From assembly GCF_000956175.1 (NCBI RefSeq), contig NZ_CP011070.1, positions 124,001 through 188,000 on the forward strand: a stretch of 64,000 bases of DNA, written 5' to 3'. The notes beneath the pieces are model-generated. The model was not told the origin of the DNA. It saw only the letters and a program-made list of their open reading frames with translations, and did no database searches. The DNA is from Nitrosopumilus adriaticus. GTDB taxonomy: Archaea; Thermoproteota; Nitrososphaeria; Nitrososphaerales; Nitrosopumilaceae. Position numbers and translations under genes: made by a program. Positions 16,811 through 19,756 of the stretch are shown here, one piece after another. Position 1 is the stretch's first letter. Every line of letters starts with the position of its first letter.

Positions 16811-16829
16811 GATTACATTATCAAAAATC

Positions 16830-16880
16830 AATAGATGGTGTAAGGTCTCTTTTCGGGAAAAAGCCTCCATCCTATCTATT
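16830..16880 (+). ncRNA. Stem-loop element downstream of the 62-aa gene
   Basis: AATAGATGG (16830-16838) pairs with CCTATCTATT (16871-16880) apart from one bulged T. Inside it, AGG pairs with CCT and CTTTT with AAAAG around a CGGG-containing loop. It begins 20 nt after the stop of the 62-aa gene and ends about 20 nt before the TATA box of the repeated RNA element. It could be a 3' end structure or a small RNA; no known family recognised. Confidence 0.4.
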
Positions 16881-16901
16881 TGATACAAATCAATTTAATT
16901 T

Positions 16902-17010
16902 GAATATAAGACCCTCGTAGAAATTATCAGTGATCCCTAAATACAATTTTACAAAATTTAATCTAACCGTCACCAAAGTACAATTCGTTTTTGGTCTTAG
17001 GTTGAAGCAC
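16902..17010 (+). ncRNA. Repeated structured RNA candidate, copy 1
   Basis: Aligns over about 110 nt with 19599-19712, including a TATA-like box at equal distance (AATATAAG, 6 nt before GTAGAAAT). Shared blocks are GTAGAAAT, TCAGT, CTAAATAC, ATTTT, GTCACCA and TGGTCTTA. A hairpin is formed by AACC (16968 region) with GGTT (17000-17003) and ACCAAA with TTTGGT, enclosing an asymmetric internal loop GTC/CTTA. In copy 2 the outer stem is GGAACT/AGTTCC: different bases, same pairing. A smaller hairpin ATCA-g-TGAT becomes TCA-gta-TGA in copy 2. It ends 52 nt before the start codon of the next gene, upstream of that gene's own TATA box. Confidence 0.6.
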
Positions 17011-17054
17011 TTTCAAGACCGTAAGATTATAAGCAATTACTAGATCTTGCGAAT

Positions 17055-19403: not shown

Positions 19404-19598
19404 TTTTTGGTTATAAACCTTGTAATTTATCGAGTGTTTTCATAAACAATTAGGTAGAATTTTGATTAATTCTAATAAATCGTTTAGCCTTGATGGATTT
19501 AGATAATAAAAGATTGGGCCAAACTTGCCCAATCCTTGGACGACGGTAAACTTGTAAATGACTTTTGTAAGAATACCATTATTCATTTTAGAAATTTG
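19404..19598. other. Intergenic region upstream of Hsp20, with perfect stem-loop
   Basis: No gene seen. GATTGGGC (19512-19519) and GCCCAATC (19527-19534) form a perfect 8-bp stem with a 7-nt loop, unusually GC-rich for this genome. AGATAATAAAAG just before it (19501-19512) resembles a TATA box in plus orientation. Whether the stem is transcribed or is a protein site for the leftward Hsp20 gene, whose start lies 109 nt away, cannot be told. Confidence 0.5.
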
Positions 19599-19712
19599 GC
19601 TTAAAAGAAAATAGTAGAAATGCTCAGTATGATCTAAATACTATTTTTTCAAAATAAATTCAATCGGAACTGTCACCAAACAACTAATCGTTGCTGGTCT
19701 TAAGTTCCAATC
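19599..19712 (+). ncRNA. Repeated structured RNA candidate, copy 2
   Basis: Counterpart of 16902-17010. TATA-like TTAAAAG ends 6 nt before GTAGAAAT, exactly as in copy 1. The hairpin has outer stem GGAACT (about 19667-19672) with AGTTCC (19703-19708), internal loop GTC/CTTA, inner stem ACCA/TGGT and an apical CAAC-taatc-GTTG stem. It ends 49 nt before the start codon at 19757. Similarity to copy 1 continues into the following TATA box, so the duplicated unit is promoter, RNA, second promoter. Confidence 0.6.
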
Positions 19713-19756
19713 TAGAAAACACCGACGGTATAAAAGACCAAAATACAATTTTCATT

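Follow-up and report, generated by a model that had tools for sequence, protein, structure and literature searches.

The Qrr RNAs of Vibrio are multi-copy bacterial sRNAs that pair with mRNAs and use Hfq, and the CsrB/RsmZ-type RNAs titrate proteins by means of many motifs carried on one RNA. In Archaea, sRNA132, an intergenic sRNA of Haloferax volcanii, has a phosphate transporter operon as its reported regulatory target (PMC6560208), and Tan1, a 229-nt ncRNA with a complex fold, was seen by RNA-seq in marine group II Euryarchaeota (PMC5069720). Comparison of the window (the whole 64,000-nt stretch of Nitrosopumilus adriaticus DNA under study) with related genomes indicates that H RNA is a previously undescribed hairpin RNA of ∼55 nt, which many ammonia-oxidizing archaea carry in 1 to 17 copies per genome. 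Like the Qrr RNAs, H has several near-equivalent small RNA genes that share a promoter element; it differs in being archaeal and in having no comparably long conserved unpaired seed. With the CsrB/RsmZ-type RNAs it would share the proposed mode, recognition of a recurring hairpin motif by a protein, but there is one motif per H RNA, spread over many genes, and the protein partner of H is hypothetical. sRNA132 resembles H in being a small RNA encoded between archaeal genes and in having a promoter of its own (predicted in the case of H), whereas H is multi-copy and hairpin-only, and a target has been reported for sRNA132 only. Tan1, too, is a structured ncRNA of planktonic marine archaea whose function, like that of H, is unassigned (PMC5069720); its phylum, length and complex fold set it apart, as does its origin in RNA-seq rather than in sequence alone. 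In the window, Rfam 15 gave no match at the gathering threshold, in agreement with the earlier note, which had recognised no known family, and permissive searches returned far sub-threshold matches only. Literature searches on ammonia-oxidizing archaea found no small RNA described for the group and no paper on H.

Copies of H in the genome and in the family

Both copies in the window share the motifs (the 28-mer, GTCACCA and TGGTCTTA) and the hairpin that the earlier note had described. The pattern GTAGAAAT..TCAGT..CTAAATAC lies at 16917-16944 and 19614-19641, i.e. 2 matches in the window against 0 expected from 100 shuffles, and across the 1,803,090-base (1.80-Mb) genome the same pattern (also written ..TAAATAC) occurs at these 2 sites only. 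Of 151 genomes of the family, 22 contained the 28-mer pattern, always with a spacing of 28 nt; a reversed control pattern had 0 matches across the same 151 genomes. The covariance-model search that the earlier note had suggested, using a model built from 30 copies (R1), gave matches in 73 of the 250 class genomes searched, dispersed on both strands and with at most 13 per genome. A hairpin-only model from 86 copies (R2) detected H in 108 of 300 genomes of a class sample, in 11 of 69 genera and with up to 17 matches per genome. When 250 genomes were sampled across the phylum, all matches fell within Nitrosopumilaceae, the family of the window itself, and in the 300-genome R2 sample a single match belonged to a different family of the order. 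Judged by contig names, most carriers are Nitrosopumilus, Nitrosarchaeum or their relatives; a few bins bear the label Nitrosotalea or Nitrososphaeraceae. In one check H was present in 20 of 20 genomes, a sample chosen for already known matches. A viral origin was dropped, since the model confirmed none of the 7 pattern matches on viral contigs; among bacterial-named contigs with pattern matches, it confirmed none except one bin (L198).

Copy 1 belongs to a conserved neighbourhood. Its ortholog alignment comprises 13 syntenic regions including the window, in which gene 16622, copy 1, gene 17055, an ABC1-like gene and, where the locus extends that far, Hsp20 follow one another; all 13 keep the hairpin and the operator-like block. 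No syntenic ortholog of copy 2 was present among the loci compared. Directly 5′ of the ATG of gene 17055, the window holds a further conserved block, GTAAGATTATAAGCAATTACTnGATCTTGCGATT (17015-17054), that contains the inverted repeat CGTAAGAT/ATCTTGCG. Nearly all 13 orthologs retain the block, which is probably the operator of another regulator.

R2 also revealed a third copy in this genome (G000:C1:644960-645017), at a locus that is conserved in many species and lies divergent to a gene for a plastocyanin-like protein (PF00127). This plastocyanin-linked single copy is the older copy. Its start is less certain, because the TATA-like box lies ∼35 nt, not 27 nt, 5′ of the hairpin base. The plastocyanin-H intergenic region (L261 1704-1960 and orthologs) additionally contains conserved ATGATCGCTCTAAT and TTGTCAAT..GTTGAACAA elements 5′ of the TATA box.

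Being multi-copy and dispersed, H could be thought a small, MITE-like mobile element with a hairpin serving transposition, the more so as 16 of 52 copies are most closely related to a copy in their own genome and L062 carries near-identical copies 2 kb apart. We regard this as improbable: for the other 36 copies the nearest relative lies in another genome, copy 1 keeps its gene neighbourhood across 13 genomes, and the promoter spacing is conserved. The two L062 copies (81-199, + strand; 2013-2133, − strand) face each other and match from the operator up to the end of the hairpin, while their flanks differ; the unit may have been duplicated recently or been subject to gene conversion.

Hairpin structure and strand

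The H core consists of an outer stem, CU/AG, an internal loop NUC/CUUA, ACCA/UGGU and AAC...GUU around a variable apical loop; the stems vary in sequence and the internal loop is nearly invariant. Common to both window copies is the GTCACCA/TGGTCTTA hairpin. Its outer stem reads AACC/GGTT in copy 1 (16965-16968 with 17000-17003) and GGAACT/AGTTCC in copy 2 (19666-19671 with 19703-19708), and the compensatory nature of this difference, first proposed from the two copies, extends well beyond them. In an alignment of 72 R1 matches (A2), 12 of 17 pairs had double changes and 78 cells were compensated, against 20 in shuffles; in an alignment of 86 copies (A6), the figures were 12 of 18 pairs and 103 versus 28 cells. 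Control structures slid along the alignment had much lower covariation scores than the true H structure. Within the copy 1 orthologs, 5 of 12 pairs showed double changes, and the outer stems were AACC/GGTT, AGTC/GGCT, AGTC/GACT or AGCC/GGCT, a few of them imperfect. These comparisons demonstrate the hairpin. On the + strand, G.U outnumbered A.C (67:24 and 63:12), a bias rather than a formal test given that the copies are related, and the H RNA was therefore assigned to that strand.

Folding energy was a poorer guide. The interval originally marked for copy 1 folded no better than shuffles (z = −0.53); copy 2 gave z = −4.1, and its predicted transcript out-folded 200 of 200 shuffles. Thermodynamics alone is insufficient to reveal the RNA. 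H is unlikely to be a coding sequence, because the apical loops of different copies differ by indels of 1–2 nt, and no conserved RUGAUGA or CUGA, as in C/D box sRNAs, was seen among the aligned hairpins. It does combine the general features of small structured ncRNAs, namely a covarying helix, a predicted promoter of its own and an intergenic site. A T-rich tail after the hairpin is modestly enriched (0.46 vs 0.35).

Predicted promoter, operator-like block and divergent partners

In 110 of 135 copies the T of CTAAATAC lies 27–29 nt 5′ of the hairpin base, a rule that includes the copy 1 group, although the stem is ∼6 nt shorter there. Owing to this fixed spacing, the most plausible reading of CTAAATAC is a TATA box for an RNA of ∼55 nt that starts at the hairpin base. 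We infer from sequence that H is transcribed, and from the spacing where exactly it starts. For copy 1, the predicted TATA box is at 16937..16944 (+) and the predicted transcript, hairpin plus T-rich end, at 16965..17014 (+), its start set by the 27-nt spacing and its structure backed by covariation among the 86 copies and the 13 syntenic orthologs. For copy 2, the corresponding features are at 19634..19641 (+) and 19662..19720 (+), as judged by the spacing to the hairpin base and, for the transcript, also by covariation and the fold.

The 28-mer behaves differently from the hairpin. The earlier note had favoured a structured RNA over a protein site for the whole unit and had drawn a small stem ATCA/TGAT within it; in 72 copies the covariation there, and at GTA/TAC, is at the level of shuffles (0.052 vs 0.053). 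The RNA interpretation stands for the hairpin, whereas the 28-mer, its stem showing no covariation, probably works as DNA, as promoter or operator. In a two-unit variant it contains a 17-bp near-palindrome, as a DNA block bound by a protein might; the idea of a simple palindromic operator of 17 bp was discarded, the palindrome being clear in that variant only. The putative operator lies directly 5′ of CTAAATAC and was located at 16916..16936 in copy 1 (CGTAGAAATTATCAGTGATCC, near-invariant among orthologs, with no RNA covariation) and at 19613..19633 in copy 2 (by sequence comparison), with no strand assigned to either; GTAGAAATTATCAGTATGATC is the candidate regulator site. As a candidate regulator, the ribbon-helix-helix-like gene 19757 was dropped, its relatives lying near few H loci only and in mixed orientation.

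Most copies carry another TATA-like box at a fixed distance 5′ of the 28-mer, which had initially been taken for the promoter of the RNA itself (16902-16910), with a start ∼25 nt downstream. One longer RNA, made of part of the highly conserved 28-mer plus the hairpin, would account for that arrangement. It is improbable, however: apart from the missing covariation in the 28-mer, two-unit variants move CTAAATAC ∼13 nt away from the upstream box, three loci (L109, L119 and L163) have no upstream box yet keep CTAAATAC and the hairpin, and the box lies 28 nt from divergent starts. At no fewer than 12 loci, leaderless start codons are found 28 nt from this minus-strand TATA box, and the hairpin bases of two candidate divergent RNAs, UA and UC, are mostly 28–32 nt from it. 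Most likely, then, the upstream box serves the opposite strand, and H starts at the hairpin base, ∼27 nt after CTAAATAC. With a probability that we put at roughly 0.7, both sites are bidirectional promoters that have the gene for a small structured RNA on their + strand; the locus would probably pair the hairpin RNA on one side with a variable partner on the other.

The H RNA would comprise ∼50–60 nt, the hairpin followed by a T-rich stretch, and the second TATA box, on the far side of the operator-like block, would drive partners that include UA, UB, UC, a GLSW micro-protein, a small C2H2 zinc-finger protein and other genes. At copy 1, the predicted box GAATATAAG (16902..16910, −), with partner starts ∼28 nt away, faces UA (16822..16881, −), a predicted divergent hairpin RNA with a T-run; its hairpin is conserved with weak covariation, and G.U exceeds A.C by 17:4 on the minus strand. 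At copy 2, GCTTAAAAG (19599..19607, −), placed by partner-start spacing, would serve UB (19505..19579, −), a predicted RNA ending in a terminator hairpin and a T-run on the minus strand, whose terminator helix covaries and which matches model R3 (the locus itself is part of the model). A UB model search in the family gave 31 matches, of which 26 were head-to-head with H and one stood alone (G093:C1:1086257), as judged by a comparison with the H positions that covered 27 of the 31. Also among the partners is a protein of 222 aa, which has a signal-like N-terminus and matches no Pfam family.

Further divergent features were noted at other loci. Micro-ORFs with a GLSW motif occur near 22 of 135 H copies (loci including L069, L071, L092, L097, L118 and L076); they are leaderless, 24–30 aa long and end in W-E-x-x-x-GLSW-x-x-x-D/E, and the two searched had no Pfam match. 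Small C2H2 zinc-finger-like ORFs (e.g. MSALGWKCYRCDLTFKQESHALIHKDITNHPAREIERTV) lie divergent to H at L024, L064, L065 and L115, with starts ∼28–31 nt from the divergent TATA box. UC, a candidate structured RNA of ∼115 nt closed by AUGCAAUGGUGC/GCACCAUUGCAU, was seen at L066, L078, L145, L176, L192, L194 and L198. Pairing of H with its own divergent partner RNA was set aside, cognate pairs being no better than permuted ones.

Possible function and significance

In the window, each copy precedes a same-strand start codon by ∼45 nt (genes 17055 and 19757), as a cis-acting leader (riboswitch or attenuator) would. Among 120 loci, however, the next gene shares the strand of H in 54 cases and has the other strand in 66, i.e. 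in no consistent position, and gene 17055 has its own TATA box 28 nt 5′ of its ATG, conserved across the 13 orthologs; a leader is very unlikely. Somewhat less far-fetched, if still unlikely, is that H merely terminates back-transcription from the bidirectional promoter, the RNA itself being functionless. The short predicted transcript with its T-rich end, usually opposite another transcript, would suit such a role, but the nearly invariant TCACCA/TGGTCTTA loop is superfluous for termination, and H is retained where its partner UA has decayed (L110, L189 and L223).

Tentatively, and at a little under even odds, we propose that H is a co-regulated, trans-acting small RNA whose NUC/CUUA loop, flanked by CU/AG and ACCA/UGGU, serves as the binding site of a protein, with the number of copies setting the dose. 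Protein binding is favoured over antisense pairing because the stems vary, the loop is fixed and no unpaired stretch of seed length is conserved. A single transcription factor may act on both directions of each promoter. It is a more doubtful step to a dedicated RNA regulon in Nitrosopumilaceae, in which one such factor would control many bidirectional promoters, all of them producing H in one direction and, in the other, a small RNA or micro-protein that differs between loci, and in which the multi-copy H would titrate or guide a shared protein.

Ammonia-oxidizing archaea rank among the most abundant marine cells. Many of their genomes hold several copies of H, an RNA family supported by covariation, and its predicted start sites are precise enough for comparison with RNA-seq. 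The head-to-head arrangement of H with small RNAs and micro-proteins points to a regulon that has so far gone unrecognised.
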